Source: Desulfotomaculum sp.
Lineage (GTDB): Bacteria; Bacillota; Desulfotomaculia; Desulfotomaculales; Desulfallaceae
Assembly (NCBI GenBank): GCA_016841675.1
Contig: JAENYQ010000029.1
Span: forward strand, 1 to 37,954
DNA length: 37,954 nucleotides
Direction of reading: 5' to 3'
Shown: in pieces, positions 1,624-30,805 of the stretch
Numbering within the stretch: position 1 is the stretch's first letter
Layout: each line of letters begins with the position of its first letter
Position numbers and translations under genes: made by a program
Notes under the pieces: model-generated
What the model was told of the DNA's origin: nothing
The model's database searches: none
Seen by the model: the letters and a program-made list of their open reading frames with translations, nothing else

Positions 1624-3921
1624 TTAAGCTTTTTCTTTTTCTTTTTTTTCTTTAAGCGCCCGCCAAACCTTTTCATAACTAAGTGGCAGGCTGTTCACCC
1701 GGATGCCCATGGCATCGTATATGGCATTGGCATAACAACCCATTGTGGGAATGGTGGCTCCTTCACCCACTTCTTTTACACCCCAAGGTCCGGCCGGCTC
1801 ATAGCTTTCCACTAGCTCCGAGGTGATCCTGGGCATATCCATGGCTGTGGGCATCCGGTACTCACCCAGGTTAGGATTTAGTATTTTCCCCTTATCATCA
1901 AAAAGAACTTGTTCCCAGATGGACTCACCCATACCCATGTAGAGGGCCCCATGCACCTGTGCATGCAGTAAACCCGGGTTAATCACCATGCCGCAGTCAT
2001 GAACATCCCACACGTCTTTTACGTCAATTTCGCCGGTTTCTTCATCTATTTCAACTTCGCTTATCTGAGCTGCAAAGCTGTAAGCCGGAGAAGTACCCAC
2101 TGCAGCTCCCTTAAAAGTTCCACCAAGCTTGGGCGGGGCATAAGATCCTTTACCAACTAGCGGCCCTTTACGCACGAAAAATTCTCTGGCCACCTCGCCA
2201 AATGGCATTGCTTTTTCTGGATCGGATAACGAAAATACAATACTATCTCGGCAATCCAAGTCGCTGACCTCAACTTCCATCATTTCCGAAGCCAGTTCCA
2301 GCATCTGACCTTTAACCTCTTCACCGGCCTGCTTCACGGCAGAACCTGACATGAGAGTTTGACGGCTAGCATAGGCACCGAAGTCGTGGGGTGTTGTCTC
2401 AGTATCGGCAGCAACAATCTTCATATTTTCATACCTAAAGCCCATAGCTTCTGCAGCCATCTGGCAAAGCACGGTATCAGAACCCTGCCCGATATCTGTG
2501 GCCCCGGTGTACAATGTTGCCGCGGTACCGTCTTCATGCACCTTGATTATCGCTGAGGCATGGGGAAGATTGGTCCGGTAGATAGGGTAACCGGCGCCGC
2601 TGACAAAGCTTCCCACGCCAATGCCAATACCTTTACCACTAGGAAGGTTCCCCTTCTTTTGCACCCAGCCCGATATTTCTTTAGCTTTGGTAATGCATTC
2701 AGTAAGCTCGCAGGAATTAACCGCAAAATCGTTGGGTGTAACGGTATTTGGCTGGCGGGCGTTGATTAGACGCAACTCAATGGGATCCATACCCAAATCC
2801 GCAGCCACATTATCCAGATGGCATTCAAAGGCATACCTTGGCTGCGGCGCACCGTGTCCCCGCTGAGCACCACATGCAGGCAGGTTGGTATAGGCCCTGA
2901 TCATATCAAACTTAAAGTTAACAAACTCATAGGTCAGGGGCAGCATTGCTCCGGCATAATAGGCAGTGGCAATGCCCAGACTGGTATAGGCGCCGCCATC
3001 CATCATGAAGTTGGCATATACGCCGGTTATTTTACCGTTTTTATCCACGCTGGTGGTAATCTCCATTATTTGCTTATGGCGACCCCGGTTGTGGGCAAAC
3101 ATTTCGTGCCGATCATAAAACATCTTGACCGGTCGGCCAGTGATTTTTGAGAGGACCGCACCAGCAAACTCAAGTCCGGTAGGTTCTAACTTACCTCCGA
3201 AACCTCCGCCCACGTACGTTTTAATTACCCGCACATCGCCCATTTTCAAACCAAACTCACGAGCAATATAATGCTGGAAATAGTGTGGCGATTGGGTACT
3301 GGAATAAACGGTAAGTTTACCGCCCTCCCATATGGATATTGCGGAATGAGGCTCGATAGGACACTGATATGTCCGGTTGCCAACAAAGCGGTCAGTGCGA
3401 AGATGGTGCGCCTCGGCAAAAGCTTTATCCACATCACCGAAATTCTGGTGGATTTCGGTATTTATGTTCCTAGCGTACTCGTCGTGTATTTGAGGAGCAC
3501 CCTCTTTAATAGCCTCTTCAGGGTCGAAAACCGCCGGCAGCACCTCGTAATCCACTTTAATCAGCTTGAGTGCTTTATAAACTGTTTCATCATCCAAAGC
3601 GGCCACAGCGGCCACCTTATCCCCCACAAAACGCACCTTGTCACTACAAAATATACTTTCATCCCAGCGAGCCGGGCTGATACCATATTTAAGAGTTGGC
3701 ACATCCTTATGGGTTATAACAGCTTTAACCCCGGGAAGTTTTTCGGCTTCTGTTGTGTCAATACTTATTATCCTGGCATGAGCATGGGGACTGGTTAATA
3801 TTTTGCCCACCAGCAGGTTGGGAAGTTTAAGATCACCGGTGTATTTTGCCTGACCGGTTACTTTGGCCCGACCATCAATTTTGGGTACACTTTTACCAAT
3901 TACCGCATATTTTTCGCCCAT
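1624..3921 (-). CDS. hcrA: Molybdenum hydroxylase 1, large Mo-cofactor subunit; 4-hydroxybenzoyl-CoA reductase alpha-like
   Basis: A 765-residue xanthine dehydrogenase-family molybdopterin cytosine dinucleotide subunit. Visible motifs: GGGFGGK (238-244), QRGHG (353-357), IGQGSD (477-482) and the C-terminal KEVGEG, which places the catalytic glutamate at E720 next to the molybdenum. By my recall of Thauera HcrA (769 aa), the block with N-L-P-A-C-G-A-Q-R-G-H-G and the block around SFVSGAG align best with 4-hydroxybenzoyl-CoA reductase alpha rather than with xanthine or CO dehydrogenase. Known role of that enzyme: reductive removal of the para hydroxyl of 4-hydroxybenzoyl-CoA. Start ATG has GGAGGGG upstream. 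It is last in the operon FAD - FeS - Mo, 17 bases after the FeS gene. Its Lys/Glu-rich tail is longer than in its paralogue at 11510. Substrate is inferred. Confidence 0.85.
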   Translation of the reverse strand: MGEKYAVIGKSVPKIDGRAKVTGQAKYTGDLKLPNLLVGKILTSPHAHARIISIDTTEAEKLPGVKAVITHKDVPTLKYGISPARWDESIFCSDKVRFVGDKVAAVAALDDETVYKALKLIKVDYEVLPAVFDPEEAIKEGAPQIHDEYARNINTEIHQNFGDVDKAFAEAHHLRTDRFVGNRTYQCPIEPHSAISIWEGGKLTVYSSTQSPHYFQHYIAREFGLKMGDVRVIKTYVGGGFGGKLEPTGLEFAGAVLSKITGRPVKMFYDRHEMFAHNRGRHKQIMEITTSVDKNGKITGVYANFMMDGGAYTSLGIATAYYAGAMLPLTYEFVNFKFDMIRAYTNLPACGAQRGHGAPQPRYAFECHLDNVAADLGMDPIELRLINARQPNTVTPNDFAVNSCELTECITKAKEISGWVQKKGNLPSGKGIGIGVGSFVSGAGYPIYRTNLPHASAIIKVHEDGTAATLYTGATDIGQGSDTVLCQMAAEAMGFRYENMKIVAADTETTPHDFGAYASRQTLMSGSAVKQAGEEVKGQMLELASEMMEVEVSDLDCRDSIVFSLSDPEKAMPFGEVAREFFVRKGPLVGKGSYAPPKLGGTFKGAAVGTSPAYSFAAQISEVEIDEETGEIDVKDVWDVHDCGMVINPGLLHAQVHGALYMGMGESIWEQVLFDDKGKILNPNLGEYRMPTAMDMPRITSELVESYEPAGPWGVKEVGEGATIPTMGCYANAIYDAMGIRVNSLPLSYEKVWRALKEKKEKEKA

Positions 3922-3938
3922 GGCGCTCTCCCCTCCTT

Positions 3939-4430
3939 TTATTCACTGGCGGCAGCCAGAATAGCCTTCACTATATTCACGTATCCCGTACAGCGACAGA
4001 GGTTTCCGGAGATGGCTTCCCGTACTTCCTCTTCTGTGGGCTGTGGGTTCCTGGTAAGCAGCGCCTTGGCCGACATAATCATCCCCGGTGTGCAGTATCC
4101 GCACTGCACCGCGGCATTATCCACAAAAGACTCCTGTAGCCGGTCCAAGTTTTCATTCTGGGCCACACCCTCAACAGTGGTAAATTTGTGGCCGTCCGCT
4201 TCTACTGCGAGTACAATGCAGGAGTTTACAGGCTTACCGTCCATTAAAACGGTGCATGAGCCGCAGTCTCCCAGCTCACAGCCTTTTTTTGTTCCGGTTA
4301 AGTCCAACTCATCTCTAATGAAATTTACCAAGAGGGTGTTGGCCTTAACAATCCGGGTATAGTCGTCCCCGTTCACATTAATGGTGACCAGATATCTTTT
4401 TACACCGCTATTATCAACTAATGCCTCCAT
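3939..4430 (-). CDS. hcrC: Molybdenum hydroxylase 1, [2Fe-2S] subunit (HcrC-like)
   Basis: A 163-residue subunit carrying two [2Fe-2S] clusters, the electron wire between the molybdenum and flavin subunits. The plant-type cluster is bound by C51, C56, C59 and C71 (CELGDCGSC...C) and the second, helical-domain cluster by C110, C113, C145 and C147 (CGYC...CRC). All eight ligands are present and the length matches HcrC and CoxS-type proteins. It lies between the FAD gene (13-base gap) and the Mo gene (17-base gap), so the three are co-transcribed. It is nearly superimposable on the paralogue at 13817, with the same cysteine positions. Confidence 0.92.
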   Translation of the reverse strand: MEALVDNSGVKRYLVTINVNGDDYTRIVKANTLLVNFIRDELDLTGTKKGCELGDCGSCTVLMDGKPVNSCIVLAVEADGHKFTTVEGVAQNENLDRLQESFVDNAAVQCGYCTPGMIMSAKALLTRNPQPTEEEVREAISGNLCRCTGYVNIVKAILAAASE

Positions 4431-4443
4431 AGCTCATCCCTCC

Positions 4444-5313
4444 TTACACGTGTCCTTCATTGATGGCTTTACGTAATGCGCGCTTGGTAAATACCCTGAC
4501 CATATCCCTCCGATACTCTGCAGAACCGCGGATATCATCAATCGGTTTGCATTCGGTGGATGCGCAAACACCTACTTCTTCCAACAAATCATCACTGATA
4601 GCTTTACCTATAATCATAGCCTCTGCTTTTGGTGCCCTCATGGGTACCGGGGCGACAGCGCCCAAAACAATCCTGGCATCCTTACATACATTACCATCCA
4701 TGGTAACCGCAACAGCCACTCCCACAACAGCCAGAGCACCCGAACGACGTAGGCCAAATTTTATATATGTGCTGCCTGTGCAAGACTGGTCGGGAATTAC
4801 TATTTGGGCAATTATTTCATCGGGGGCAAGCAGTGTTTTACCGGGGCCGACAAAGAATTCCTCCAACGCCATAACCCTTTCACCCTTTGTCCCCACCAGA
4901 GTTATTGATGCGTCTAGTGCCATTAATATGGGTGGCAGGTCTGCGGAAGGTACTGCATTTGAAATATTTCCGCCTATGGTGCCTACATTTCTAATTTGAT
5001 TGTTGGCCATATGATGGGCGGCTTCACATATGGAAAGATATTTTTCCTGCAGCAGCTTAGAGTTACAAATGGCATTGTGTGTAGCCCTGGCTCCTATTAG
5101 TACGCCTTTACCCTCTTCATATTCGATATTGGATAATTGCTCAAGCTGTTTTAGCGAGATAAGTACTGCCGGTGCGACTAGACCATGTTTCATTTTATTC
5201 AACAGATCGGTTCCCCCCGCAAGCACTTTGGCCACCTGGCCTTTTTCCGCCAGCAATGCACAGGCTTCCTGTATTGTGGCGGGCATATGATACTCGAAAT
5301 CCGGTAGATACAT
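4444..5313 (-). CDS. Molybdenum hydroxylase 1, FAD subunit, lacking the HcrB-type [4Fe-4S] insert
   Basis: A 289-residue CoxM/XdhB-type FAD-binding subunit. FAD motifs AGGTD (32-36) and TIGGN (112-116) are clear. In classical HcrB (about 324 aa) the segment after the TIGGN motif holds an insert of roughly 40 residues with four cysteines for an extra [4Fe-4S] cluster. Here the chain passes directly to [11 protein letters not shown], so that cluster is absent. This matters because the cluster is thought to carry electrons to the flavin in the reductive direction. Start ATG with AAGGAGG upstream; first gene of the operon, with the promoter at 5388-5416. Confidence 0.88.
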   Translation of the reverse strand: MYLPDFEYHMPATIQEACALLAEKGQVAKVLAGGTDLLNKMKHGLVAPAVLISLKQLEQLSNIEYEEGKGVLIGARATHNAICNSKLLQEKYLSICEAAHHMANNQIRNVGTIGGNISNAVPSADLPPILMALDASITLVGTKGERVMALEEFFVGPGKTLLAPDEIIAQIVIPDQSCTGSTYIKFGLRRSGALAVVGVAVAVTMDGNVCKDARIVLGAVAPVPMRAPKAEAMIIGKAISDDLLEEVGVCASTECKPIDDIRGSAEYRRDMVRVFTKRALRKAINEGHV

Positions 5314-5354: not shown

Positions 5355-5365
5355 GAACACTGTTC
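5355..5365. promoter_or_regulatory. Palindromic operator candidate GAACA-C-TGTTC
   Basis: A perfect 5-bp inverted repeat with one central base, just downstream of the hydroxylase 1 promoter on the minus strand. Its TGAAC/GTTC half-sites recur upstream of ravA (5533-5560) and of hydroxylase 2 (15220-15245), suggesting one shared regulator, perhaps the IclR protein at 9763. Confidence 0.45.
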
Positions 5366-5387
5366 TCTATTGTGTACATTTACTTAC

Positions 5388-5525: not shown

Positions 5526-5560
5526 TTGACATTTGTTCATAACTAAATTTATATGAACAA
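5526..5560 (+). promoter_or_regulatory. ravA promoter overlapped by a TTGTTCAT...ATGAACAA operator candidate
   Basis: TTGACA at 5526-5531 is followed by a weak -10 (TTATAT, 5549-5554). A perfect 8-bp inverted repeat, TTGTTCAT (5533-5540) and ATGAACAA (5553-5560), fills the spacer and covers the -10 region, where a bound repressor would block the polymerase. The half-site is shared with the hydroxylase operons. Confidence 0.5.
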
Positions 5561-5577: not shown

Positions 5578-6876
5578 TTGTTGACCAAAGATAGTAACAT
5601 TTATCAAAAAATAATTGGCATCGAGGACTACTTGAATAGTAAGTTCCTAGAAAGAGAAGCGCTTATTTCACTATTATTGTTAACAGTTTTATCCGGGCAA
5701 AATATGTTTATATTGGGCAAACCCGGTGTTGCAAAATCTGAAATAGTCTATCAAGCATCTTTGCTATTTAAAAAGGTTAGAATATTCCGCTACCTATTAA
5801 CAAAATATACAACCCCTGAAGAAATATTTGGTTCAATATCCCTTGACGAGTTAAAGAAGGGGCGTTTTTATAGAAGAATCTCCAAAAAATTGGCTGACGT
5901 TGAGATTGGCTTTCTTGATGAAATTTTTAAGGGAAATAGTTCGATTTTAAACAGTCTGCTGATGATTGCTAATGAAAAAATTTATATTAATGACACCGAG
6001 GTGGTCAAAGTCCCCTTAATCTCTTTGTTTGGAGCTTCTAATGAAATCCCTGATGAGGAAGAGATGGAAGAATTACAGGCCTTGTACGATCGCTTTACTA
6101 TAAAGTTTATCGCCGAACCTATTAAAGATTTTAAAAATTTTTCCAAGCTTCTGTTACAAGATGAAAATCAGTTGCAGATAGAAAATGAATTATTACTTGA
6201 ATTAAACGATGTATTGACTATACATGATAAAGCTATGGAAATAACCCCCGGGCAAAAAGTACTTAATTTAATATATGAAGTGCGAGAGTATTGTTATGAA
6301 AACAACTATTATGTATCTGATAGAAAATTTAAAAATATATTAACCATACTAAAGGTTTGCGCTTTTGTTAACGGTAGATCAGATATTGTTGCTGAAGATT
6401 TATTTTTGCTGCCATATATGATATGGGAAAAGCCCGAGGATTTTGCAACAATAGAAAATGATATACATAATATTATTTTAGATCATATTTTTAATAGTAT
6501 CTTGTCTAACATATCAATCAGAATATCTAACTCTTTTTCCTCATTTATTAATGAATTAATAATATCTACTAATAATCAATATAATGAATATACTAAATGT
6601 TATAGTTATTTAAAACCAAAACAAAAGGAAGACCTAGTGATACAATATCGTTTAGTTAGAGAGTACTTATATAAAATAAATAGAATTATAGATCAACTAA
6701 CGACAGAATTATCATCTTACCAGTTAAAATACAATCTCAGATATTACCACCTGGTTTATCAAAAGATTTTATTTACTATCAACAACAAGCTTACGGAGTT
6801 TAGTGATTACCAAATTAAACTTAGTGAATTAAATGATAAAATTCAATCTGCCCTGCAAGAGGAAGATAAAATATGA
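5578..6876 (+). CDS. ravA: RavA-like MoxR-family AAA+ ATPase
   Basis: A 432-residue AAA+ ATPase of the MoxR/RavA group. Walker A is GKPGVAKS (47-54), Walker B ends in FLDE (D114, E115), followed by sensor-1 region GASNEIPDEEE and the ALYDRF arginine-finger region. The order and wording (LSG-FxLGxPGxAKS, TPEEIFGSIS, LDEIFKGNSSILN) match E. coli RavA closely by recall. MoxR ATPases act with VWA partners as chaperones that insert cofactors or remodel metalloenzymes; CoxD/CoxE do so for the molybdenum CO dehydrogenase. The C-terminal 150 residues are helical and less conserved. TTG starts at 5578 and 5581 are both possible; AAGGAGG (5566-5572) favours 5581. It overlaps viaA by ATGA, so translation is coupled. 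It is markedly more AT-rich than its neighbours. Confidence 0.85.
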   Translation: MLTKDSNIYQKIIGIEDYLNSKFLEREALISLLLLTVLSGQNMFILGKPGVAKSEIVYQASLLFKKVRIFRYLLTKYTTPEEIFGSISLDELKKGRFYRRISKKLADVEIGFLDEIFKGNSSILNSLLMIANEKIYINDTEVVKVPLISLFGASNEIPDEEEMEELQALYDRFTIKFIAEPIKDFKNFSKLLLQDENQLQIENELLLELNDVLTIHDKAMEITPGQKVLNLIYEVREYCYENNYYVSDRKFKNILTILKVCAFVNGRSDIVAEDLFLLPYMIWEKPEDFATIENDIHNIILDHIFNSILSNISIRISNSFSSFINELIISTNNQYNEYTKCYSYLKPKQKEDLVIQYRLVREYLYKINRIIDQLTTELSSYQLKYNLRYYHLVYQKILFTINNKLTEFSDYQIKLSELNDKIQSALQEEDKI

Positions 6877-8573
6877 ACTTTATAAAACACGATCAATACG
6901 ACCAGATGTATTTCTCTTACCTGGAACAAAAATACGACCTGACCAGGTCCCTCCGGAGAAGCCAGATCAAAATAATAGACAGAGATATGCTATTGGACTT
7001 ATACAACATCCTTTTTAAAGAGCACCTGGAGATAGTAGCGGTAAAGGAAAAAGAGGTTTCACGGAATGATTTTACCAAATTTTTATTTATCAATAAAATA
7101 ATAGCAAGCAGTTATCTAACAAGAATAAAACGTTATACCGTCTTTAATGAACAAAACAGCTTTCTTTTCATTTCCGAGCTGTTAAATTCTTTTGGTACTT
7201 TCAGTATGTGGGAAGATGAAGACACCGAAAGTACCGATGAACTGCTGGATTCAGTTGACAGTTTGGCCAAAGATACCAAAAGCAACCATGCTCGAGCGGA
7301 TTACAACAAGGAAGAAGACCCTTCACATACCCCCACAGAAAACGATTTAAGCCCAAATAAACAGTATGATAGCATGCTCAATAAGTTATCCAAATATATT
7401 GACACAAACAAGGCACTTTTGCCACCAAACCTTAATCAGTTAGGCTTTTTACCTGCGCCCGATAAAATGAAAACTATCAACACTATCTATGATTTAAATA
7501 GTGTTATGGATAGCCTGGGAAAACTAAAAAAAGATTTGCACGAAACGACACCGGGAGTATTAGACAAAATAGAAAAAGAACTTCATGAATTATCTTTCAA
7601 CTGTGGCAGCGCTGCAAATAAAATAATCATTGATGAAATGGATAAATATTTACGACAGGTAAGTTTACAGGTAGAAAAAGATATTCATATAAAACAGGAA
7701 TTATATAATAACCTAAAGAAATTAAGTTCCCACAATTATTGGGATTTAGCCCTAAGTAACCTGATCCAGACAAACCCCGAGTTCTGCTTTTATATGTCAA
7801 ATTTGATCAAAAAACACCCGGATATTATGAAAATAACTAGATTAATGGGCAACTTAAAGGTTATAAGGACCCGAAAGCACAAAAAAATGACAAAGTCTAC
7901 CTTTGAATGCAAAATGAATATTTCTACCTCAAACGATATTACAAACCTGATCCCCATGGAGTTATTGTATTTGGAACAACAATTGGAAAATATATTTTAT
8001 AATAAGCTCATCGAGCAAAAATTATACACTTATGATTATAAATCCCGTAGCAATAAGGGCAAGGGGGGCATAATCGTCTGTCTTGATACATCCGGAAGCA
8101 TGATTGGTGTTCAGCTTGACTTAATTAAAGCTATAATTCTTAACCTTGCCTTAAGAACGCTGCACAGGAAAAGGTATTTTGCCCTGATTAATTTTAGCAG
8201 TTCAATGAAGGATATTCTACTTCTTCCACACCGACCTGATTTCAAAGAGTTTATTAATTTATTGACTTCTTCTTTTTATGGCGGTACCAATTTTGACATG
8301 CCCATAAAGAGAACACTAGAAATAATTGAAAACTTCAGACATCACCGTGAATCGGATGTATTAATATTTTCAGATGGTTTTGGCAAACTTAGTGACGAAG
8401 TGCTTAATAAATTGGAAATTTACAAAAAAAAATACCACTTTGGGCTATTTGGATTCTTAATAGACGATAATTCTAAAAGCACTAGCATTGCTAACTGCTG
8501 CGACAGGATTTTTAATTTAAACTCAAGTAACTTACTAAAAGATTTACTTAAACACCTCGAAAAGTTGGCCTAA
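6873..8573 (+). CDS. viaA: ViaA-like VWA-domain protein, partner of the RavA-like ATPase
   Basis: A 566-residue protein whose C-terminal third is a von Willebrand A domain with a complete metal-ion-dependent adhesion site: DTSGS (405-409), T472 in GGTNFD, and D501 in FSDGFG. The N-terminal two thirds are helical, charged, with a low-complexity acidic stretch near 110-165. This layout, VWA at the C-terminus and a helical N-terminus, matches ViaA and CoxE-type partners of MoxR ATPases. The ATG overlaps the ravA stop (ATGA), so the pair is translationally coupled. Likely role is substrate recognition for the ATPase; the adjacent molybdenum hydroxylases are the obvious candidate clients, which is inference from location. 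Confidence 0.82.
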   Translation: MNFIKHDQYDQMYFSYLEQKYDLTRSLRRSQIKIIDRDMLLDLYNILFKEHLEIVAVKEKEVSRNDFTKFLFINKIIASSYLTRIKRYTVFNEQNSFLFISELLNSFGTFSMWEDEDTESTDELLDSVDSLAKDTKSNHARADYNKEEDPSHTPTENDLSPNKQYDSMLNKLSKYIDTNKALLPPNLNQLGFLPAPDKMKTINTIYDLNSVMDSLGKLKKDLHETTPGVLDKIEKELHELSFNCGSAANKIIIDEMDKYLRQVSLQVEKDIHIKQELYNNLKKLSSHNYWDLALSNLIQTNPEFCFYMSNLIKKHPDIMKITRLMGNLKVIRTRKHKKMTKSTFECKMNISTSNDITNLIPMELLYLEQQLENIFYNKLIEQKLYTYDYKSRSNKGKGGIIVCLDTSGSMIGVQLDLIKAIILNLALRTLHRKRYFALINFSSSMKDILLLPHRPDFKEFINLLTSSFYGGTNFDMPIKRTLEIIENFRHHRESDVLIFSDGFGKLSDEVLNKLEIYKKKYHFGLFGFLIDDNSKSTSIANCCDRIFNLNSSNLLKDLLKHLEKLA

Positions 8574-8681: not shown

Positions 8682-9701
8682 TTACTTACCAAAAGGACAC
8701 TCGGGATATCGACATTCTTTACAACTCTTGCATAATCCACCGTGACCGAGCATGGCAATATCTTTTCTAGTAAGTTTTTCTCCAGCCAATACCCTGGGCA
8801 GCACTAAATCAAAAACAGTAGCTTTAAAGTACATAACACAGGCCGGTAAGCCCATAATTGGCACTTCACCATAGTAGGCCAGCAAAAACATGGCACCGGG
8901 CAGAACCGGGGAACCGTATGTCACCAGTTCGGCACCGGTACTTTTAACCCCACTGGGAGTAACATCATCAGGGTCAACAGACATCCCTCCGGTAGTTATT
9001 ACCATCTGCGCTCCCTTGTGAATAAAGTCTTGTATTTTTTCTTTGATCAGTGCCGCGTCATCGTATAATAATTCATGCCATAAAACCTCACACCCGAAAC
9101 GGGCCATTTTTTCCTTTACCACTGGACTAAATTTATCCTTAATTCTCCCATAATAAACCTCATTGCCCGTGGTGATTAAAGCCACCTTTAGTTGATGCAT
9201 TTCTACTACTTCCAAAAGTGGGCCTCTTTTGAGACATAATTCTTCCATGGTCTCAATCTTTTCTTTTTTTATAACTAGTGGGATTACTCTGGTACCAGCT
9301 AAAATTTCTCCTTTTTTCACTACCTGGTTGGTGTGTCTAGTGGCAAATGATACTTCATCAATCATGTTAACTTCACAAAGGTTCTCGACATTTACTTTAA
9401 AAAGCCCCGGCCTGGAAGATGTTATAGTTACTTTCCCCTCACTAGGCTGGGAGTACTCAACACCTTGACCAATAGCAGCCTTAGCCATTCTTAATGCTGC
9501 ATCATTTTCATGTACCAGGTCATTTCCACATTCCCAAATATACAGGTGATCCTTGCCTAGTTTTAGCAGTTCCTCAATATCTTCTTGTTTAACTAAATGA
9601 CCTTTTTTAAAAGCAGGTCCTTTAAATTCTCCCGGGACTATCTTTGTCACATCATGGCAGAGAATCAGACCAACCGCGTCTTCCACTTTTACTTTACGCA
9701 T
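8682..9701 (-). CDS. Molybdopterin-binding (MoeA/MogA-fold) protein with a Cys-rich tail
   Basis: A 339-residue protein with a MoeA-like N-terminal segment and a MoCF_biosynth domain (about 170-300) containing TTGNEV and TTGGMSVDPDD, the usual molybdopterin or adenylate binding signature. It ends in an unusual C-x2-C-x2-C-x4-C tail (C324, C327, C330, C335), which could bind an iron-sulfur cluster or zinc. Proteins of this type are known beside molybdenum hydroxylase genes in clostridia and probably help make or load the cofactor. It follows the IclR gene by 61 bases on the same strand. A relic of a second copy of its 3' end lies at 11047-11128, and that relic keeps the cysteines. Confidence 0.8.
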   Translation of the reverse strand: MRKVKVEDAVGLILCHDVTKIVPGEFKGPAFKKGHLVKQEDIEELLKLGKDHLYIWECGNDLVHENDAALRMAKAAIGQGVEYSQPSEGKVTITSSRPGLFKVNVENLCEVNMIDEVSFATRHTNQVVKKGEILAGTRVIPLVIKKEKIETMEELCLKRGPLLEVVEMHQLKVALITTGNEVYYGRIKDKFSPVVKEKMARFGCEVLWHELLYDDAALIKEKIQDFIHKGAQMVITTGGMSVDPDDVTPSGVKSTGAELVTYGSPVLPGAMFLLAYYGEVPIMGLPACVMYFKATVFDLVLPRVLAGEKLTRKDIAMLGHGGLCKSCKECRYPECPFGK

Positions 9702-9762: not shown

Positions 9763-10536
9763 TCAGTGACTCATCATTTGGTTTATTTTTTTAGCCGCAC
9801 GCAACGTTGCCGTTATCGCATGGCTTACTTTATCACTGTTAAAGCTGCTGGCAAATCCCACCACCCAAATAGCAGCCAAGGTATGTCCTCGCATATCGGA
9901 AATAGGTACACTTGCTGCATTGACACCTTGAATGTATTCTTCAAAATCAGTTGCATAGCCCTGCTCTTTTACTATCTCAATTTCCTTTGCGTATTTTAAT
10001 GGATCAGTAATGGAATATTTAGTATATTTAGGGAGTGGTTTTTCATCTAGAGCACTTTGAAAAGCCTGCTCCGTAAGGCTGGCTAGAAAAACTTTACCAG
10101 CAGCCCCTGCAAAAAGGGGTATCCTGGTGCCGACGGGAGCAGAAATCTTGAGTTCAAGTGGGCTATCAACCTTTTCAATAATGGTTATTTTTTGCCCGTC
10201 AAAAGTGCCTAAAAAAATGGTCTCCTTAAACTCCCTACATAACTCTTCCAAAAGCGGACGCGCTAACAATCTTAAATCTTCGCCGGCAAGAGCCCAGTTT
10301 CCCAATTGGATAAGGGTCGGACCCAGCCTAAATTTTTTATTTAAATCCTGTGTTAAAACTCCTAAATCAAGTAACGCCTGGGTTATTCCATACACTGTGC
10401 TTTTAGATATATTTAATTTACGAGCCAGGTCGCTTATTCCGAATCCAGACTGGTCACCGGCAATTTCATCCAGGACTGCAAAGGCCTTGTATAATATTGG
10501 CGCACTATATCCACTCGCTGTTTTTTTAATTGTCAT
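9763..10536 (-). CDS. IclR-family transcriptional regulator
   Basis: A 257-residue IclR-type regulator: winged helix-turn-helix at about 12-75 (LARKLNISKSTVYGI is the recognition region), then the effector-binding domain at about 85-250 (FAGAAGKVFLAS, GYATDFEEY, GVNAASVPI). Such proteins control aromatic catabolism operons in many bacteria. Start ATG 10536 has GGGAGG six bases upstream. It is upstream of the molybdopterin-binding protein gene in the same direction and between the two hydroxylase operons. It is the best candidate reader of the TGAAC/GTTCA palindromes near both hydroxylase promoters, but that link is inference. A partial second copy survives at 11158-11507. Confidence 0.88.
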   Translation of the reverse strand: MTIKKTASGYSAPILYKAFAVLDEIAGDQSGFGISDLARKLNISKSTVYGITQALLDLGVLTQDLNKKFRLGPTLIQLGNWALAGEDLRLLARPLLEELCREFKETIFLGTFDGQKITIIEKVDSPLELKISAPVGTRIPLFAGAAGKVFLASLTEQAFQSALDEKPLPKYTKYSITDPLKYAKEIEIVKEQGYATDFEEYIQGVNAASVPISDMRGHTLAAIWVVGFASSFNSDKVSHAITATLRAAKKINQMMSH

Positions 10537-11509: not shown

Positions 11510-13792
11510 TTACTTTTTCTCTTTTATTGCACGCCATATTTTTTCATAGGTAAAGGGCAAGCTTTTCACCCGTACCCCGATAGCATCATATACGGCATTT
11601 GATATACAACCCATTGTCGGAGTGGTAGCTCCTTCTCCAACTTCTTTAACTCCCCAGGGAGCATTAGGGTCAACAGTATCGACTAGTTCAGAAGCTACCG
11701 GCGGCATATCAAGTGCTGTGGGCAATCTGTATTCAGCCAGGTTTCCGTTCATCAGCTTTCCATTCTTATCGAAAAGCACTTCTTCCCAGATGGCTTCGCC
11801 CATGCCCATATAAAAGGCACCGTGTACCTGACCATGCAATAGCGCCGGGTTAATTACATAACCACAGTCATGCACGTCCCAGGCTTCAATGACTTCAATC
11901 TCGCCTGTTTCTTCGTCTATCACAACTTCTGCAACCTGGGTGGCAGCACTATATGCCGGGGAGGTACCTACTGCGGAACCTTTGTGAACTCCACCAAGTT
12001 TGGGCGGCTTGTACGAGCCACGTCCGATTAACTGACCATTTTTTACAAAATATGTCCTGGCCACCTCGGCAAAAGTCTTAGTTATTTCAGGGTTTGATTT
12101 GACAAACACGATTCCATCCCGGCAGTCTAATTCCTCGTTGCTAACACCCATTATCTCGGCTGCCGTATCCAGTATTTTCTTATTAACGTCTTCCCCTGCC
12201 TGCTTTACAGCCGCCCCGCTCATTAGTGTTTGCCTGCTGGCATACGCGCCAAGGTCGTGGGCGGCCAAATCCGTGTCGGCGGCCACAATCTTCATATCCT
12301 CATAGCGATAACCCATGGCCTCGGCGGCCATTTGGCAAAGTACCGTGTCACTGCCCTGGCCAATCTCGACAGCTCCTGTGTAAAGAATAGCCGAGGTTCC
12401 ATCATCGGTAACCTTAATCGTAGCCACAGAATGAGGCAGGTCAGTCCGGTATATGGCATAACCGGCGCCAGAAACAAAGCCGCCGTTGCCCATCCCAATT
12501 CCTCGTCCTTGGGGCAACTTGCCTTTTTTATCCCGCCAGCCTGAAATCTCTCTGGCTTTCTCCATGGCTTCCTTCAAGCCGTACGAGTCTACTCTGAACC
12601 CTTGCACAGTTAATGTACCTGGTTTCCGGGCATTGATTATGCGCATTTCCAGGGGGTCAATCCCCAGGTGTTCAGCAATATTATCCAGGTGGCTCTCAAA
12701 AGCGTACCTGGGCTGTGGTTGCCCATGGCCACGTTGAGCCCCACAACCGGGAAGGTTGGTTACAACCCTGAGCATATCAAATTTATAATTTTCAAAATCG
12801 TAAAGAATGGTGAGCAGAGCGCCGGCATAATAAGCAGAGGCAATCCCAAGACCGGTATAGGCCCCGCCATCCATCACGAAATCGGCGTGCACACCCAAAA
12901 TTTTTCCTTCTTTAGTCACGCCGGTGGTAATATTCATAAACTGGGGATGTCGGCCACGGTTGTTAAAAAACATATCTTCTCGGTCAAACCACATTTTAAC
13001 GGGCCTGCCCGTCTTTTTAGCCAGGATTACGGCGCCAAAATCAAGCCCGGATGGGTCCATTTTACCGCCAAACCCGCCTCCAATATAAGTTTTTAAAACC
13101 CGCACATCGCCCATTTTCAAATCAAGCACTTGTGAGAGATAATATTGTAGATAATGAACAGATTGAATACTGGAATAAACAGTAACTTTGCTGCCTTCCC
13201 AATAAGCGATAGTAGCATGAGGTTCCAGGGGGCATTGATAGGTACGCTGTCCGTCATAACGGTCAGTCCTTACGTAATAAGCGTCTTTAAAGGCCTGGTC
13301 CAAATCGCCAAAGTTCTGGTGAATTTCGGTATTAATATTCCCGGGGTACTCTTCAAATATTTGCGGCGCTCCTTCTTTCATCGCTTCAAAAGCATCAAAA
13401 ACGGCAGGCAGCACTTCGTAATCTACTTTAATCAGCTTTAGCGCCTTGTAAACGGTTTCCTCATCTATAGCCGCGACTGCAGCAACTTTGTCGCCAATAT
13501 ATCGTACCTTATCAATACAAAATATATTTTCATCCCAGCGGGCCGGACTCAGTCCGTATCTTTTGGAAGGCACATCCTTATGAGTAATTACTGCTTTAAC
13601 CCCTGGTAATTTTTCAGCCTCGGAAGTGTCAATACTTATAATCCGCGCATGCGCATGTGGACTGAGTAAAAGCTTGCCCACAAGCATATTGGAAAATTTA
13701 ATATCAGCCGTATACTTGGCCTGTCCGGTTACTTTTTCAAAAGCATCAATCCTGGGCACACTTTTTCCAATTTGTGTATAATTATCGCTCAT
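11510..13792 (-). CDS. hcrA: Molybdenum hydroxylase 2, large Mo-cofactor subunit; 4-hydroxybenzoyl-CoA reductase alpha-like
   Basis: A 760-residue paralogue of the gene at 1624, sharing most residues along its whole length. GGGFGGK, QRGHG, IGQGSD and KEVGEG are all kept, with the catalytic glutamate again at E720. The same HcrA-like blocks are present, so it is assigned to the 4-hydroxybenzoyl-CoA reductase group; the substrate is inferred. Differences from copy 1 cluster in loops and in the short C-terminal tail, so the two may act on different hydroxylated aromatic CoA esters or under different conditions. AGGGG lies ahead of ATG 13792. It is third in the FAD - FeS - Mo operon, 24 bases after the FeS gene. 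Confidence 0.85.
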   Translation of the reverse strand: MSDNYTQIGKSVPRIDAFEKVTGQAKYTADIKFSNMLVGKLLLSPHAHARIISIDTSEAEKLPGVKAVITHKDVPSKRYGLSPARWDENIFCIDKVRYIGDKVAAVAAIDEETVYKALKLIKVDYEVLPAVFDAFEAMKEGAPQIFEEYPGNINTEIHQNFGDLDQAFKDAYYVRTDRYDGQRTYQCPLEPHATIAYWEGSKVTVYSSIQSVHYLQYYLSQVLDLKMGDVRVLKTYIGGGFGGKMDPSGLDFGAVILAKKTGRPVKMWFDREDMFFNNRGRHPQFMNITTGVTKEGKILGVHADFVMDGGAYTGLGIASAYYAGALLTILYDFENYKFDMLRVVTNLPGCGAQRGHGQPQPRYAFESHLDNIAEHLGIDPLEMRIINARKPGTLTVQGFRVDSYGLKEAMEKAREISGWRDKKGKLPQGRGIGMGNGGFVSGAGYAIYRTDLPHSVATIKVTDDGTSAILYTGAVEIGQGSDTVLCQMAAEAMGYRYEDMKIVAADTDLAAHDLGAYASRQTLMSGAAVKQAGEDVNKKILDTAAEIMGVSNEELDCRDGIVFVKSNPEITKTFAEVARTYFVKNGQLIGRGSYKPPKLGGVHKGSAVGTSPAYSAATQVAEVVIDEETGEIEVIEAWDVHDCGYVINPALLHGQVHGAFYMGMGEAIWEEVLFDKNGKLMNGNLAEYRLPTALDMPPVASELVDTVDPNAPWGVKEVGEGATTPTMGCISNAVYDAIGVRVKSLPFTYEKIWRAIKEKK

Positions 13793-13816
13793 ATAAACAC
13801 CCCTTTCTACAGATTT

Positions 13817-14311
13817 CTACTGTTCATCGGCCGCAACCAATACAGCTTTGACAATATTGACATAGCCCGTGCAGCGGCAAAGGTTGCCCGCGATTGCCGT
13901 CCGCACTTCCTGTTCCGTCGGGTGCGGGTTTTGGGTGAGCAGCGCCTTGGCCGACAATACCATACCGGGCGTGCAGTATCCGCACTGGATGGCTGCATTT
14001 TCAATAAACGATTCTTGGATTCGATCGAGTTTATTGTTCTGAGCTACTCCTTCAATAGTGGTAATTTCGTGGCCGTCTGCTTCCACCGCCAGTACTATAC
14101 ATGAGTTCACCGGCTTGCCGTCCATTAGAACTGTGCATGAGCCGCAATCGCCCAATTCACAACCTTTTTTGGTTCCGGTTAGATCTATTTCTTCACGCAA
14201 AAATTTTACCAACAGGGTATTGGCTTTTATCACCCTGGTATAGCTGTCCCCATTGATGTTTAGTGTCACTAAATATCTTTTTATGCCGTTATTATCAACA
14301 ACTACTTGCAT
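13817..14311 (-). CDS. hcrC: Molybdenum hydroxylase 2, [2Fe-2S] subunit (HcrC-like)
   Basis: A 164-residue subunit with all eight cluster ligands: C51, C56, C59, C71 for the plant-type cluster and C110, C113, C145, C147 for the second. It is very similar to the copy at 3939. Start ATG 14311 has AGGAGGG upstream. The 14-base gap to the FAD gene and 24-base gap to the Mo gene indicate one transcript. Confidence 0.92.
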
Positions 14312-14325
14312 TAATACATCCCTCC

Positions 14326-15195
14326 TTACACATGACCATTATTAATCGCTTTACGCAAAGCTCTCTTTGTAAATACCCTGACCATGTCCCTCCGGTATTC
14401 CTCAGAACCGCGTATATCCGAAATGGGGTTACATTCAGTGGACGCGCATACACCCACTTGCTCCAGTAATTCATCAGTTATAGCATTCCCGATCATCATT
14501 GCCTCAGCTTTTTTAGCTCTCATTGGTACAGGAGCCACCGCGCCAAGTGCAATACGGGCATCCTTACAAATGTTTCTATCCATTTCAACTGCTACTGCCA
14601 CCCCTACAACCGCAAGTGCACCCGAACGACGCAGTCCGAATTTTATGTACGTGCTTCCGGTAAAGGAATTATCCGGGATGACTATTCCAGTAAGTAACTC
14701 GTCCGGGGCAAGGTGTGTCTTTCCGGGGCCGGTAAAGAATTCTTCCAGAGGCATAACCCGCTCACCATTTGTACTGACTAGTGTTAATAAAGCACCCAGG
14801 GCAATGAATATTGGCGGTAAGTCGGCTGACGGAACAGCGTTAACAATATTGCCTCCAATAGTGCCCACATTTCTAACCTGGTTATTAGCCATATGTTGGG
14901 CAGCCTCACATACTGAAAGATACTTCTCTTGAAGTAGTGAGGAATTAGAAATAGCATTGTGGGTTGCCATGGACCCAATAACTACGCCTTTGCCAGACAC
15001 ATAATCAATAGAAGTTAGTTGGTCTAGTTTTTTTAGTGAAATTAGCACTTCCGGGGCCATTAATTCATGCTTCATTTTATTTAGCAGGTCGGTGCCCCCC
15101 GCAAGCACTTTGGCTCCAGGACCCTTTTCAGCTAGTAAAGCACAGGCATCCTGCAAACTGGCGGGAATGTAGTAATCAAAGTCGGGTAGATTCAT
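14326..15195 (-). CDS. Molybdenum hydroxylase 2, FAD subunit, lacking the HcrB-type [4Fe-4S] insert
   Basis: A 289-residue FAD subunit, roughly three-quarters identical by eye to the copy at 4444. AGGTD (32-36) and TIGGN (112-116) mark the FAD site. As in copy 1, the chain passes straight from TIGGN to [10 protein letters not shown] with no four-cysteine insert, so the extra [4Fe-4S] cluster of classical HcrB is missing. Start ATG 15195 with AAGGAGG. It is the first gene after the promoter at 15258-15287. Confidence 0.88.
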
Positions 15196-17119: not shown

Positions 17120-17710
17120 TTAAGATTGAATATTTAGCACTACTCCACGCATTTGATTTCCTTCCCAGCGGTGGAATAACTGGTGTTCAATGCCAAATTG
17201 ATCAAGGGCTTTGCCGACGGTCTGATTGACAATATCATCAATCGTTTTTGGGTGGTGATAAAAAGCCGGCACCGGCGGCAAAATGGTTCCACCAATTTCA
17301 GCCAATGTAACCAACAGCCTTAAGTGTCCTATATGCAACGGTGTCTCACGTACAATTACCAGCAGCTTTCTCTTTTCCTTCAGCGTTACATCCGCGGCGC
17401 GGACCAGCAGGTTGTCATTGTACGAATTAGCCATTGCAGATAAGCTTTTAATGGAACAGGGAGCGACAATCATGCCGTCATGCTTAAAGGAACCACTGGC
17501 AATGGTAGCGCCGATATTCTCGTTTTCGTAAACATAATCCGCAAGCGCTTCCACATCGTTGATGCGGTAATCCGTTTCAGTGTCTATAGTTCTTTTAGCA
17601 CTTTTACTGAGCACCAGATGCGTCTCAACCCGGCATTGGCGCAGGGCTTCAAGTGCTCTGATCCCATAAATGGCACCACTGGCGCCGGATATTCCAACAA
17701 CGATTTTCAT
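17120..17710 (-). CDS. ubiX: UbiX-type flavin prenyltransferase
   Basis: A 196-residue flavoprotein of the UbiX/Pad1 family, which prenylates FMN to make the cofactor of UbiD decarboxylases/carboxylases. GISGASGA at the N-terminus binds FMN phosphate, and RETPLH further on is the family signature. I start it at ATG 17710, 10 bases after AAAGGAGG (17728-17721); a 32-residue upstream extension has no ribosome site. It is encoded near ubiD, so it probably supplies prFMN for the carboxylation step. A strong hairpin (17770-17810) precedes it. Confidence 0.92.
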   Translation of the reverse strand: MKIVVGISGASGAIYGIRALEALRQCRVETHLVLSKSAKRTIDTETDYRINDVEALADYVYENENIGATIASGSFKHDGMIVAPCSIKSLSAMANSYNDNLLVRAADVTLKEKRKLLVIVRETPLHIGHLRLLVTLAEIGGTILPPVPAFYHHPKTIDDIVNQTVGKALDQFGIEHQLFHRWEGNQMRGVVLNIQS

Positions 17711-17769
17711 GGTAACAAAACCTCCTTTGGGGGCACGGCATATAACCGGTGCGAATTTGATATGATGTG

Positions 17770-17810
17770 TTACTTGCCTCCGGATGTATATCCACATTGG
17801 AGGCAAGTAA
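17770..17810. other. Strong hairpin between the CoA ligase and ubiX genes
   Basis: A perfect 12-bp stem, TTACTTGCCTCC (17770-17781) with GGAGGCAAGTAA (17799-17810); the loop contains GGAT-GTAT-ATCC. There is no T-run on the minus strand, so it looks more like an RNA processing or stability element between co-transcribed genes than a terminator. Confidence 0.5.
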
Positions 17811-17835
17811 TCATAACTAATAAAAGCTATATTCT

Positions 17836-19473
17836 TTATAACATCTTTTCTAACTCTGCCTTAAGGACTTTCTTGTCTACCTTTCCAGAATCGCCTACAG
17901 TCGGTATATTTTCCACGATTTCCAAACGTTCCGGCAACTTGAAAGAGGCTAGTTGTTTTTCCTTCAAAAAAGAAACCATCTCTTCAAACGTGAAGACTGT
18001 ACCAGGTTTGGTGACAACAAATACACACGCACGCTCTCCCAATTCTCTGTCTGGATAACCAACAATAGCCACTATTTTAACCTTTGGATGCTCTTGCAGC
18101 AACCCTTCTACCTCCGCCGGGTAGATATTCTGGCCACCTCGGATAATCATATCTTTGGCCCTGCCCATAATCCAAAGACAACCTTGATCCCATTTGACAA
18201 TATCCCCGGTGGTGGCCCATCCCTCACTGTCAAAGACGGTGGCGGTGGTTTCATAATCGCGGTAGTAACCGGCCGGAGAATTGGGTCCTCTGAACCACAG
18301 CTGACCTGGTTCGCCAGGCCCAACAACATTACCGTCATCGTCGATGAGCTTAACTTCGTTGCCCGCTAGCGGTCTTCCTACGGTCCTTCTTCTTAAATCT
18401 GCCGGATCGTCCACCCTGCACCCGGATACGGAACCCACATCCTGAGTGCCCAGATCACTTGTAATAACGCCGCCAAACGTACTTTCGGCCGTCTGTCCCA
18501 CGTCTGGAGGAAGGTAGCCGCCGGCCGAGCGAATAAAGCGCAGGGAGCTAATGTCGTACTTATCCTTCGGTTGCTCAAGCATCCGGATCAGGTGGGTAGG
18601 AACAACCCCGATGCACGTCGCCTTTTCTTTCTGGATCAAATCGAGTGCACTTTCGGCAGTAAATTCTTCAAGCAACACGGTTTTCGCTCCTACTATAGGA
18701 GCAGCGAAATATGTCAAAGTACCCGCCGCGCCTCCGGCAAAGGGGGCAATAGCAGCGGTAGTATCCTCCACAGTAAGCTTCCAGATATCAACCCGGCCCT
18801 TGGCCGTGCAAAGCCGCGGTGCAATGTTCCATTCTACCAGCTTAGGCAGTCCAGTTGTTCCGCTTGTGCTGGTGAGCATCGCCATGTCCCTGAAAGGGTC
18901 AAACCGTCGGTCATCTAAAACTGTTAACTTTTCTTCCGGCACCGGCTCCTGTAAAAGCTGGAGCAAGGAATATGTGCCCTCCGGAGCACCGGCAGGGACA
19001 TCTTCGTCAAGGAGGAAAATATGCTTAAGATCAGGGGATAGTTTACGGAGGTCATTATACATTTCCAGATAGTTAAAGTTTCTGTAGGTGTTGGGAATAA
19101 CTACTGCCGAAGCGCCTGTTTTTTCAATCATGTACGATAATTCCTTTTGACGCATATAAGCATATACAACAAGGGAAATCAGTCCCGCGCGTTCCGCGGC
19201 AATCCTAGCCAGAAAAGCGTTGACATCATTGGGCGCCTGAATAATTATCCGATCGTATTTCTGCAGGCCCAGCTCAACCCAACGGTAGGCCATCCGGTCG
19301 ATTAAGTCTTTAGCCTGCGCCCAGGTTACCCGATGACGCGAATCCACAAGGGCTTCCCGATCAGGAATTTCTTTAGCGTTTTTGGCCCAGTAGTCGTAAA
19401 AAGTCTCGTCAGTCCAATAACCATTATCCTTAAATTCCTTAATCATATCTTCTGTATAACGCATTACTTTCAT
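17836..19473 (-). CDS. AMP-forming aryl acid-CoA ligase (probable hydroxybenzoate-CoA ligase)
   Basis: A 545-residue acyl-adenylate synthetase. The P-loop TSGTTGLPK (about 203-215), the TGD and GRAKDMI motifs and the C-terminal catalytic lysine in SGKVDKK (K531) are intact. Overall layout, including the opening N-G-Y-W and the end K-L-P-E-R-L-E, is closest to the EntE/DhbE aryl acid branch by recall. In this setting the likely reaction is hydroxybenzoate + ATP + CoA giving hydroxybenzoyl-CoA, feeding the Hcr-like enzymes. It lies between the Tm-1-like gene and ubiX on the same strand. GAGGAGGG precedes the start; a second in-frame ATG four codons on is also possible. Exact substrate not provable from sequence. 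Confidence 0.85.
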   Translation of the reverse strand: MKVMRYTEDMIKEFKDNGYWTDETFYDYWAKNAKEIPDREALVDSRHRVTWAQAKDLIDRMAYRWVELGLQKYDRIIIQAPNDVNAFLARIAAERAGLISLVVYAYMRQKELSYMIEKTGASAVVIPNTYRNFNYLEMYNDLRKLSPDLKHIFLLDEDVPAGAPEGTYSLLQLLQEPVPEEKLTVLDDRRFDPFRDMAMLTSTSGTTGLPKLVEWNIAPRLCTAKGRVDIWKLTVEDTTAAIAPFAGGAAGTLTYFAAPIVGAKTVLLEEFTAESALDLIQKEKATCIGVVPTHLIRMLEQPKDKYDISSLRFIRSAGGYLPPDVGQTAESTFGGVITSDLGTQDVGSVSGCRVDDPADLRRRTVGRPLAGNEVKLIDDDGNVVGPGEPGQLWFRGPNSPAGYYRDYETTATVFDSEGWATTGDIVKWDQGCLWIMGRAKDMIIRGGQNIYPAEVEGLLQEHPKVKIVAIVGYPDRELGERACVFVVTKPGTVFTFEEMVSFLKEKQLASFKLPERLEIVENIPTVGDSGKVDKKVLKAELEKML

Positions 19474-19628
19474 TGTATTACTTCCCTCCTCTTAAGAAAA
19501 TAAAATTTTTGCCATTATTAAGTAACTAATCATAATTCTTCAGTGATATCTTGACATATCAGCTATGGTAAGTAAGTTTGAAATTTAATAATGATGCTAA
19601 TATTTAGCAATGGATGGTGTGCCTTGTT

Positions 19629-20876
19629 TTACACATTTCCGTCTGCTTTCATTACTTCCTTAAAGGCTTTGATTACTTCTTCAGCAAACCTTTGTTCCTC
19701 TAAGTTGGCATCCACTTCTTTTATTTCGATGTCATCTTTTAGGAGTTTTCTTAGTTCATCTATAAAAATGCGGTCGGTTTCAGGTTCATACAGAACGCTT
19801 CCCTCTCCGTCTATGCCAGACCAGCCTTTGGTTGGTACTATGATTTTAACCGGCCCTCTGGCCTGGTTTAGCTTTCCTGCAAAAGCTTCTGCAACCTTAA
19901 CCAATTCATCGGGAGATACTCTTAAGAATGTACGCAATGAATCCATATCGTATCTTTTACGGTTGTAATAGTCAGGCTTATATTTGCTTTTTGGAGGTGT
20001 CATTAGGTTCACCAAACAAGGGGCAATAATTTGGGGGATGCCTGCCTTGCCGGCCGCTTCAAGCCTGAGCGGACCAGCCGCCCTGGTGCCGCCGAGCAGT
20101 TCCTCTCCTACCGCGCCCGGGGCCAAGTCGATTACTGCGCTAAAAATACCTTCTTTATCTATTAATTCCTCCATGGCCATGTCCGCTACGCCTGTAGCGG
20201 AAAAACCAATTACCTGGTACCCTTCCTGCTCCAGGCTCAGCCGCACATGAGTAGCGCATTTTTCACACATATTCAATAGGGTCATGGCTACAAGCGGCTT
20301 GCCTTGCTTTCTGCCGGCCCCCACGGTCACGCCGGCTTCTTTCATCTCAACCATGCCCAAGATACTTCCGGCAGCCCGATCCAGCACGTTGCACATGAGA
20401 TCATTTAAGCTGGTAAAATCTATTACCGAGTGCATTATCGCTATATCGGCAGTGCCAAAATAGCGACTGGTCAAACCCCGTGCAGCCGCCACACTGGAAA
20501 CCATCAGCTTAGGGACGCCAAAAGGAAGTGCTTTCATTACACCGGTACCCATTATGGTGCCAGTGGCTCCACCGATGCTGATTATTCCGACCAATTTATT
20601 TAGATCATACAGCTCTTTAGCCTTTTTCCCCGCACCCTCGACCATTAACTGCATTAATTTAGGCCTGTTTTTCGATAGGTTCTCGCCATCAATTTCCTTA
20701 CCTGAAGCGGCAAGCACTTCTTCACGCGTGATATCTGCGGAAATGCTAGGCGAATCTTTTGTGCCAATATCCATGATTAATGCATGGTAACCTTTTTTAT
20801 CGATTTGCTCTTTTAGGTATTTCGTCTCTTCACCTTTCGTATCCAGGGTACTCACTATCATTACTGTTTTTTCCAT
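19629..20876 (-). CDS. Tm-1-like ATP-binding family protein (UPF0261)
   Basis: A 415-residue member of the Tm-1-like/UPF0261 family, recognised by the start STLDTKGEE, the D-I-G-T segment, GGATGTIMGTGVM and the C-terminal P-T-K-G-W-S-G-I-D. The plant relative Tm-1 binds ATP and a viral replicase; the bacterial function is unknown. I begin at ATG 20876 behind GGGGTGAA rather than 22 codons upstream, where no ribosome site is seen. It sits inside the phenol carboxylation gene set, between ubiD and the CoA ligase, which suggests a role with an ATP-dependent step there. That role is a guess. Confidence 0.85.
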   Translation of the reverse strand: MEKTVMIVSTLDTKGEETKYLKEQIDKKGYHALIMDIGTKDSPSISADITREEVLAASGKEIDGENLSKNRPKLMQLMVEGAGKKAKELYDLNKLVGIISIGGATGTIMGTGVMKALPFGVPKLMVSSVAAARGLTSRYFGTADIAIMHSVIDFTSLNDLMCNVLDRAAGSILGMVEMKEAGVTVGAGRKQGKPLVAMTLLNMCEKCATHVRLSLEQEGYQVIGFSATGVADMAMEELIDKEGIFSAVIDLAPGAVGEELLGGTRAAGPLRLEAAGKAGIPQIIAPCLVNLMTPPKSKYKPDYYNRKRYDMDSLRTFLRVSPDELVKVAEAFAGKLNQARGPVKIIVPTKGWSGIDGEGSVLYEPETDRIFIDELRKLLKDDIEIKEVDANLEEQRFAEEVIKAFKEVMKADGNV

Positions 20877-20978
20877 CAAGTTCACCCCTCTATGCCAACA
20901 CCCTGGCGATTTGTCGCGCTCTATTCTACGGTTCTTGCTCATCGTCCATTCAACGGAAGTTCTTCACTGTTGCTCTTT

Positions 20979-21026
20979 AATTTACCGTTACGGTGCTTGA
21001 ATAAAGCACCCGTAACGGTAAATTTT
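20979..21026. other. Large hairpin between ubiD and the Tm-1-like gene
   Basis: AATTTACCGTTACGGTGCTT (20979-20998) pairs with the block 21004-21024 apart from one bulged G, around a 5-base loop. It follows the ubiD stop (21078). With no U-run on the minus strand it may be a partial terminator, a processing site or a mobile palindrome. Confidence 0.55.
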
Positions 21027-21077
21027 AAGGTCGCCTAAGTAGTGTTAGCGCAATTAGGTTGCAGGATATAGCGTGTC

Positions 21078-22487: not shown

Positions 22488-22541
22488 AATAATCTCCTTT
22501 CTCAAACCTTTTTTTGTATTGCTTTTTTTGTATTTGATTGA

Positions 22542-23609: not shown

Positions 23610-23728
23610 GGTTTGCCCCCCTTAAAACATCTTTAAATTGTTTTTCATGAATATTTCATTAACTCATTAATCCCCTCAATACGAAAATAGACTTTTTCAT
23701 AAGCAATTGTGCCCAACAGAGGTAAGCT

Positions 23729-23781
23729 GTCATCCTGAGCGTTAGCAAAGGGTTTAGACTCTTCACTTCGTTCAGAATGAC
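23729..23781. repeat. Dispersed inverted-repeat copy (GTCATCCTGAGCG...TTCAGAATGAC)
   Basis: The ends GTCATCCTGA (23729) and TTCAGAATGAC (23771-23781) are near-complementary and the inner part carries TTCACTTCG. It lies in the 218-bp gap between ppsA and ppsB and would form a hairpin in the operon mRNA. Confidence 0.6.
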
Positions 23782-23827
23782 ATGACCCTGTACCACTTAC
23801 TGATTTAACGGTATAATCATATTGTTT

Positions 23828-25666: not shown

Positions 25667-25681
25667 GGTTTACCCCTCCTT

Positions 25682-25840: not shown

Positions 25841-25845
25841 TGGGC

Positions 25846-25953: not shown

Positions 25954-25975
25954 AGATTATACTAGTTCAGTTAAC

Positions 25976-30803: not shown

Positions 30804-30805
30804 AT

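Follow-up and report, generated by a model that had tools for sequence, protein, structure and literature searches.

What does a RavA-ViaA-type gene pair do between two operons for molybdenum hydroxylases? The role of RavA-ViaA in Escherichia coli is disputed, with fumarate reductase, complex I, the membrane, and aminoglycosides all having been put forward. A branch that sits beside one enzyme type and the genes maturing its cofactor gives a concrete candidate client. We examined such a pair in Desulfotomaculum sp. The window analyzed, 37,954 nucleotides, is an entire contig (JAENYQ010000029.1) of a 3.84-Mb genome.

A RavA-like/ViaA-like pair between two hydroxylase operons

The RavA-like and ViaA-like open reading frames share the four bases ATGA at positions 6873 to 6876 (TGA stop, ATG start), and AAGGAGG lies immediately 5′ of the TTG start of the RavA-like frame. 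Hydroxylase set 1 (1624-5313, minus strand) is divergent from the RavA-like gene, with a spacing of 264 bp. A preliminary description had placed a translationally coupled pair between two Hcr-like operons, divergent from the first and near a molybdopterin-binding gene, and this arrangement was confirmed, coordinates included (Table 1).

Table 1. Features of the locus, with CoxD/CoxE-type pairs near Hcr-like operons of other genomes (window positions unless another locus is named)
Feature	Position	Strand	Details
HcrA-like molybdenum-binding large subunit 1	1624-3921	-	765 aa; TIGR03194 1124 bits; best PDB match 1rm6_A, E 9e-169
HcrC-like [2Fe-2S] subunit 1	3939-4430	-	163 aa; Pfam Fer2_2 4.9e-35
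HcrB-like FAD subunit 1	4444-5313	-	289 aa; FAD_binding_5; 1rm6_B match to residues 3-118 only
GTTCTCTATTGTGTAC	5362-5377		Upstream of hcrB; candidate IclR-type operator
28-base palindrome	5533-5560		Just 5′ of the RavA-like gene
RavA-like MoxR AAA+ ATPase	5578-6876	+	432 aa; AAA+ core and lid, all-helical C terminus, no LARA domain
ViaA-like VWA protein	6873-8573	+	566 aa; start overlaps ravA stop; MIDAS intact
MoCF_biosynth-domain (molybdopterin-binding) protein	8682-9701	-	339 aa; PF00994 3e-22
IclR-family regulator (PcaR/PobR-like)	9763-10536	-	Family matches
Second HcrACB-like set	11510-15195	-	A 11510-13792, C 13817-14311, B 14326-15195; TIGR03194 1061 bits; Pfam
Phenol-type gene region	17120-27982		UbiX-like flavoprotein, AMP-dependent ligase, UPF0261, UbiD, phenylphosphate-synthase-like gene pair; regulator with XylR_N/V4R and PucR-type C terminus
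Third molybdenum hydroxylase set, other type	28497-32079		A 768 aa, FeS 149 aa, FAD 277 aa
CoxD/CoxE-type pair (G094)	L118:17088-19259		Genome without a close RavA-ViaA pair
CoxD/CoxE-type pair (G200)	L162:5430-7554		Genome without a close RavA-ViaA pair

The same description had named the pair RavA-ViaA, and here the name probably held for the subfamily but not for the exact proteins. The RavA-like protein matched the NCBIfam RavA model (NF010054) over residues 6-307 only, with an E value of 4e-63 and 214 bits against an equivalog cut-off of 681. Its best Pfam match was bpMoxR; AAA_lid_8 and AAA_5 matched as well. The AAA+ motifs GKPGVAK, FLDE, and ASN are intact, and Walker A, Walker B, and sensor are conserved (A1/A2); together with the AAA+ fold, these are the features of a MoxR AAA+ ATPase. 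E. coli RavA also has the LARA (PF20265) and ATPase_RavA_C (PF12592) domains, whereas the window protein matches neither. The ViaA-like protein scored 91 bits (E 9e-26) against the NCBIfam ViaA cut-off of 500 (NF008230) and matched VWA_2 in Pfam. All of its MIDAS residues are present (D405, S407, S409, T472, and D501), and its gene adjoins the RavA-like gene, as in ViaA in the wide sense. By sequence, the two proteins are related to E. coli RavA and ViaA without being their equivalogs.

The predicted model of the RavA-like protein had a pLDDT of 76.5, with the C-terminal 145 residues predicted to be helical. That of the ViaA-like protein was too weak (pLDDT 62.5, pTM 0.46), and so the RavA-like model alone was compared with the PDB by fold. 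Between two relatives (L020 and L021), dN and dS were 0.079 and 0.54 for the RavA-like gene and 0.109 and 0.69 for the ViaA-like gene. With dN/dS at about 0.15, the pair is under purifying selection. Just 5′ of the RavA-like gene, a perfect 9-base inverted repeat (TTGTTCATA/TATGAACAA) forms part of the 28-base palindrome. Among nine sources scanned, this palindrome was present in the window alone, and we claim no conserved ravA operator.

Both HcrA-like subunits exceed the cut-off of TIGR03194 (4-hydroxybenzoyl-CoA reductase alpha, 994.55 bits), and the A subunit of set 1 is nearest to that of Thauera HcrABC. The first HcrB-like subunit scored 144.7 bits against the beta-subunit cut-off of 404.55. 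Its alignment with 1rm6_B ends at residue 118, which we take to be the start of the [4Fe-4S] insert in Thauera HcrB. This feature of the 4-hydroxybenzoyl-CoA reductase beta subunit is absent from the set 1 protein, which is instead CutM-like; electron entry into the Hcr-like enzyme is therefore probably unlike that of the classical enzyme. The enzymes of strict anaerobes are not known to have the [4Fe-4S] insert. Both HcrB-like subunits of the window are short, at 289 aa.

The phenylphosphate-synthase-like, UbiD, UbiX-like, and AMP-ligase families in the window suggest that the locus belongs to anaerobic phenol/4-hydroxybenzoate catabolism. Across 34 sources scanned, GTTCTCTATTGTGTAC is kept 5′ of hcrB in three divergent layouts (the window, L009, and L015); outside the window it was found only in genomes G021 and G011, with at most one change. 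It is possibly an IclR-type operator.

Recurrence and limits of the association

We searched 113 genomes of the order Desulfotomaculales; a class-level search covered the same number of genomes and gave the same matches. The ATPase query matched seven of them at an E value of 1e-20 or better. Two matches were distant (30-33%) and five were close: the window itself, G011 (76% identity), G021 (70%), G091 (58%), and G101 (56%). The ViaA-like query alone returned the same five genomes, which represent four genera and two families. G101 is Pelotomaculum terephthalicicum JT, G091 is the Desulfotomaculaceae MAG STE_194, and G011 is a Bacillota MAG, while G021 is presumably Desulfotomaculum gibsoniae. 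Excerpts of the D. gibsoniae genome paper mention phenol genes and no AAA protein (PMC4148979). A search of viral contigs gave no relatives.

In all five holders the pair lies within an hcr neighborhood, a molybdenum-cofactor-maturation neighborhood (yqeB, yqeC, mocA, xdhC, MoCF), or both, and a MoCF-domain gene is present each time. The layouts vary. As in the window, hcrACB of G021 is divergent from ravA-viaA, with IclR-yqeC-mocA-yqeB-xdhC-MoCF behind hcr. The order in G011 is yqeB-mocA-yqeC-hcrACB divergent from ravA, with viaA, MoCF, and IclR on the next contig; its ravA-like gene is interrupted by two contig ends. The other two carry the pair within a run of maturation genes. G091 reads yqeC-mocA-MoCF-yqeB-xdhC-ravA-viaA on one strand, with the nearest hcr operon on the contig about 15 kb away. 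In G101, hcr and a regulator are followed by yqeC-MoCF-yqeB-ravA-viaA, and the yqeB and ravA frames overlap (yqeB stop at 16432, past the ravA ORF start at 16425). The window genome has its yqeC-mocA-yqeB-xdhC block on another contig (C123), beside a different hydroxylase. The YqeB and YqeC families are named for selenium-dependent molybdenum cofactor biosynthesis.

Lack of recurrence in a neighborhood survey had been set beforehand as what would refute the proposed link, but the arrangement recurred in four further genomes of the 113. The linkage had also been thought undescribed. Our literature search, covering papers open without subscription, found none connecting RavA-ViaA or another MoxR pair to Hcr, in agreement with that view. 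The nearest papers, as excerpted, concern CoxD or unrelated MoxR genes (PMC2997495, PMC4782131, and PMC11278965).

The pair was present in 5 of 10 genomes with an HcrA of at least about 80% identity to that of the window, versus 0 of 103 others. The Fisher P value of 1.8e-6 ignores kinship and overstates independence because there are only five such genomes, partly related. All five holders have an HcrA at least 83% identical to that of the window. However, the association runs one way: every holder of the pair also has Hcr, but Hcr occurs without the pair as well. Three genomes that are 99-100% complete (G026, G067, and G100) lack a close RavA although their HcrA is 83-85% identical. Hcr thus does not strictly require the pair, which is optional. 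Elsewhere in the phylum, five genomes whose HcrA is 76-84% identical gave no RavA- or ViaA-type match in the sequence examined. In the phylum sample, only the window's own match reached past model position 320 of 431.

We also inspected 27 hydroxylase loci that do not adjoin the pair. In two of them, a VWA_CoxE gene follows the gene of a CoxD-type ATPase (Table 1). CoxD-type genes are common in the order (54 of 113 genomes) and mostly distant from Hcr, so substitution by a CoxD-type pair at other Hcr loci is a lead only. In G096, a CoxD-type gene lies about 13 kb from that genome's own Hcr.

A candidate client and competing accounts

The position of the pair beside yqeB, yqeC, mocA, and xdhC in relatives favors a function in maturing or activating a molybdenum hydroxylase. 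The pair has the same two parts as CoxD/CoxE and NorQ/NorD, has a hydroxylase and XdhC as neighbors like the former, and adds YqeB/YqeC, which suggests ATP-driven opening of a site for insertion of cofactor, sulfur, or selenium, or for repair. On balance, we think it probable that the pair is an optional, accessory ATP-driven remodeling machine for the adjoining Hcr-type hydroxylase. In this model, six RavA-like subunits would assemble into a ring, and the ViaA-like protein would serve as adaptor, holding the hydroxylase by its VWA/MIDAS face; the form held would most likely be the apo or inactive enzyme. ATP hydrolysis would then open the buried molybdenum site. Into this site could pass the cofactor prepared by the MoCF-domain protein, MocA cytidylyltransferase, XdhC, and YqeB/YqeC; alternatively, a terminal sulfur or selenium could be added or a dead-end site reset.

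We also tentatively entertain a broader proposal, which we hold with less confidence. The LARA-less RavA-ViaA branch may be devoted to assembling molybdenum hydroxylases of the Hcr type, which possibly bear selenium. Alongside CoxD/CoxE, it would be another MoxR-VWA answer, recruited separately, to the loading of a molybdenum active site, and it would give the RavA subfamily a metallocofactor client. If this is true, anaerobic aromatic catabolism would be a further case in which the MoxR-VWA device known for CO dehydrogenase was taken up, this time from another MoxR subfamily.

The preliminary description had suggested either maturation or reactivation of the active site. Maturation genes do adjoin the pair in relatives, but the pair is optional, and the data here do not separate the two. 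A narrower form of our explanation, overlapping with it, is that the pair is a reactivase only. It would rescue mature hydroxylase that has become inhibited and would have no role in first assembly; CbbQ/CbbO, which acts in this way on Rubisco, is a MoxR-VWA precedent named in PMC9976466. Optional occurrence fits repair better than assembly, while nearness to the insertion genes yqeB and xdhC fits assembly better, and we consider a pure reactivase somewhat unlikely.

Alternatively, the pair could serve a shared Mo/Se cofactor-maturation pathway (YqeB-XdhC-MocA) and hence several hydroxylases rather than Hcr specifically. It is co-directional with or overlaps yqeB in G091 and G101, shares a contig with yqeB in four of the five genomes, and occurs in genomes that carry further molybdenum hydroxylases. 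As for the selenium side of such a pathway, all 11 genomes tested have selD, whether or not they carry the pair. Yet YqeB is above cut-off in 50 of the 113 genomes and the pair in only 5, and the window genome keeps the pair with hcr and yqeB elsewhere. We regard this account as unlikely. The same selD count makes selenium uninformative as a discriminator of pair holders. The best selD match of each of the 11 genomes contains a single in-frame TGA, which would fit SelD being a selenoprotein itself.

The pair may also act on another target, a respiratory complex or the membrane, with its adjacency to hcr being historical, for example through transfer of an AT-rich insert. E. coli RavA-ViaA has been tied to Frd, Nuo, and the membrane (PMC10585395, PMC3893208, and PMC9489729). 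The distribution of the pair is patchy, and its GC content is low: in four genomes it is 0.30-0.35, while the remaining genes measured have 0.42-0.54, and the contrast is smaller in G011 (0.40-0.47 versus 0.53-0.56 for neighbors). Since the pair is GC-poor relative to its neighbors in all five, an acquired insert is possible. However, the linkage survives rearrangements, being divergent to hcrB three times and in a maturation-gene run twice. As a control, we examined 44 distantly related RavA-like loci, two from the order, 17 from the phylum, and 25 from named genome records (653 kb with unequal flanks). In none of them did the gene panel find a subunit of a molybdenum hydroxylase or a maturation gene. 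A different target appears quite doubtful. Finally, a MoxR-vWA conflict (defense) system, of the kind described in PMC7159879, is very improbable: the best Pfam match, bpMoxR, is named after MoxR-vWA-beta-propeller systems, but E. coli RavA matches it more strongly (191 bits) than the window protein does, PADLOC matches neither protein, and those neighbors that match a family belong to metabolism, regulation, or transport.

Relation to known MoxR-VWA systems

The nearest characterized protein compared was E. coli RavA, with 35.5% identity over 304 residues in BLASTP (E 1e-56). Its structure, 3nbx, was the first PDB match of the RavA-like protein by sequence and also by fold (E 1e-17). The ViaA-like protein, which has a C-terminal VWA domain, aligned with E. 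coli ViaA from about residue 285 onward (23%, 6e-17), whereas the N-terminal part gave no BLASTP alignment. The neighborhoods differ as well, with kup/asnA in E. coli and hydroxylase and Mo-cofactor genes here. In E. coli, RavA lacking LARA retains an ATPase activity that ViaA stimulates, and the VWA part of ViaA binds FrdA (PMC10585395). Counting against our explanation, a MoxR-VWA pair can also inhibit its target, as for Frd in E. coli (PMC10585395).

BLASTP and profiles clearly favor a RavA/ViaA-type pair rather than CoxD/CoxE. CoxD from Afipia/Oligotropha pHCG3 gave no BLASTP match with the RavA-like ATPase up to an E value of 10, and CoxE matched the VWA protein no better than 0.09. Against VWA_CoxE (PF05762), the ViaA-like protein scored 20.8 bits, below the cut-off of 26.4, compared to 288 for CoxE itself. 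CoxD/CoxE orthology is ruled out by these comparisons. In a tree with rows L044 and L045 left out and L129 cut, the RavA-like branch joined E. coli RavA at a support of 84/56, placing it there weakly, and CoxD sat on a very long branch.

In NorQ/NorD and CbbQ/CbbO, too, a MoxR-VWA pair loads or resets the active site of an enzyme; their targets are different and, per the literature, they belong to another MoxR subfamily. NorQ/NorD is presented as an ATPase with a MIDAS adaptor for cofactor insertion, in which NorD is proposed to grip apo-NO-reductase through its MIDAS, pass on the ATP-driven motion of NorQ, and open the metal site (PMC9976466). CoxD is reported to be needed for MgATP-dependent sulfuration of molybdenum in folded apo-CO dehydrogenase, with CoxE and CoxF acting on copper (PMC4240915). 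CoxD/CoxE likewise combines a MoxR ATPase with a VWA protein, and its genes adjoin those of a xanthine-oxidase-family enzyme with three subunits as well as a gene of the XdhC family. The pHCG3 order, coxMSL, MoxR ATPase, VWA protein, and XdhC protein, is the same order of roles as at the loci of the pair. Taken together, the best reading is that the pair would play a role for Hcr-type enzymes parallel to that of CoxD/CoxE for CO dehydrogenase, drawn from another MoxR subfamily.
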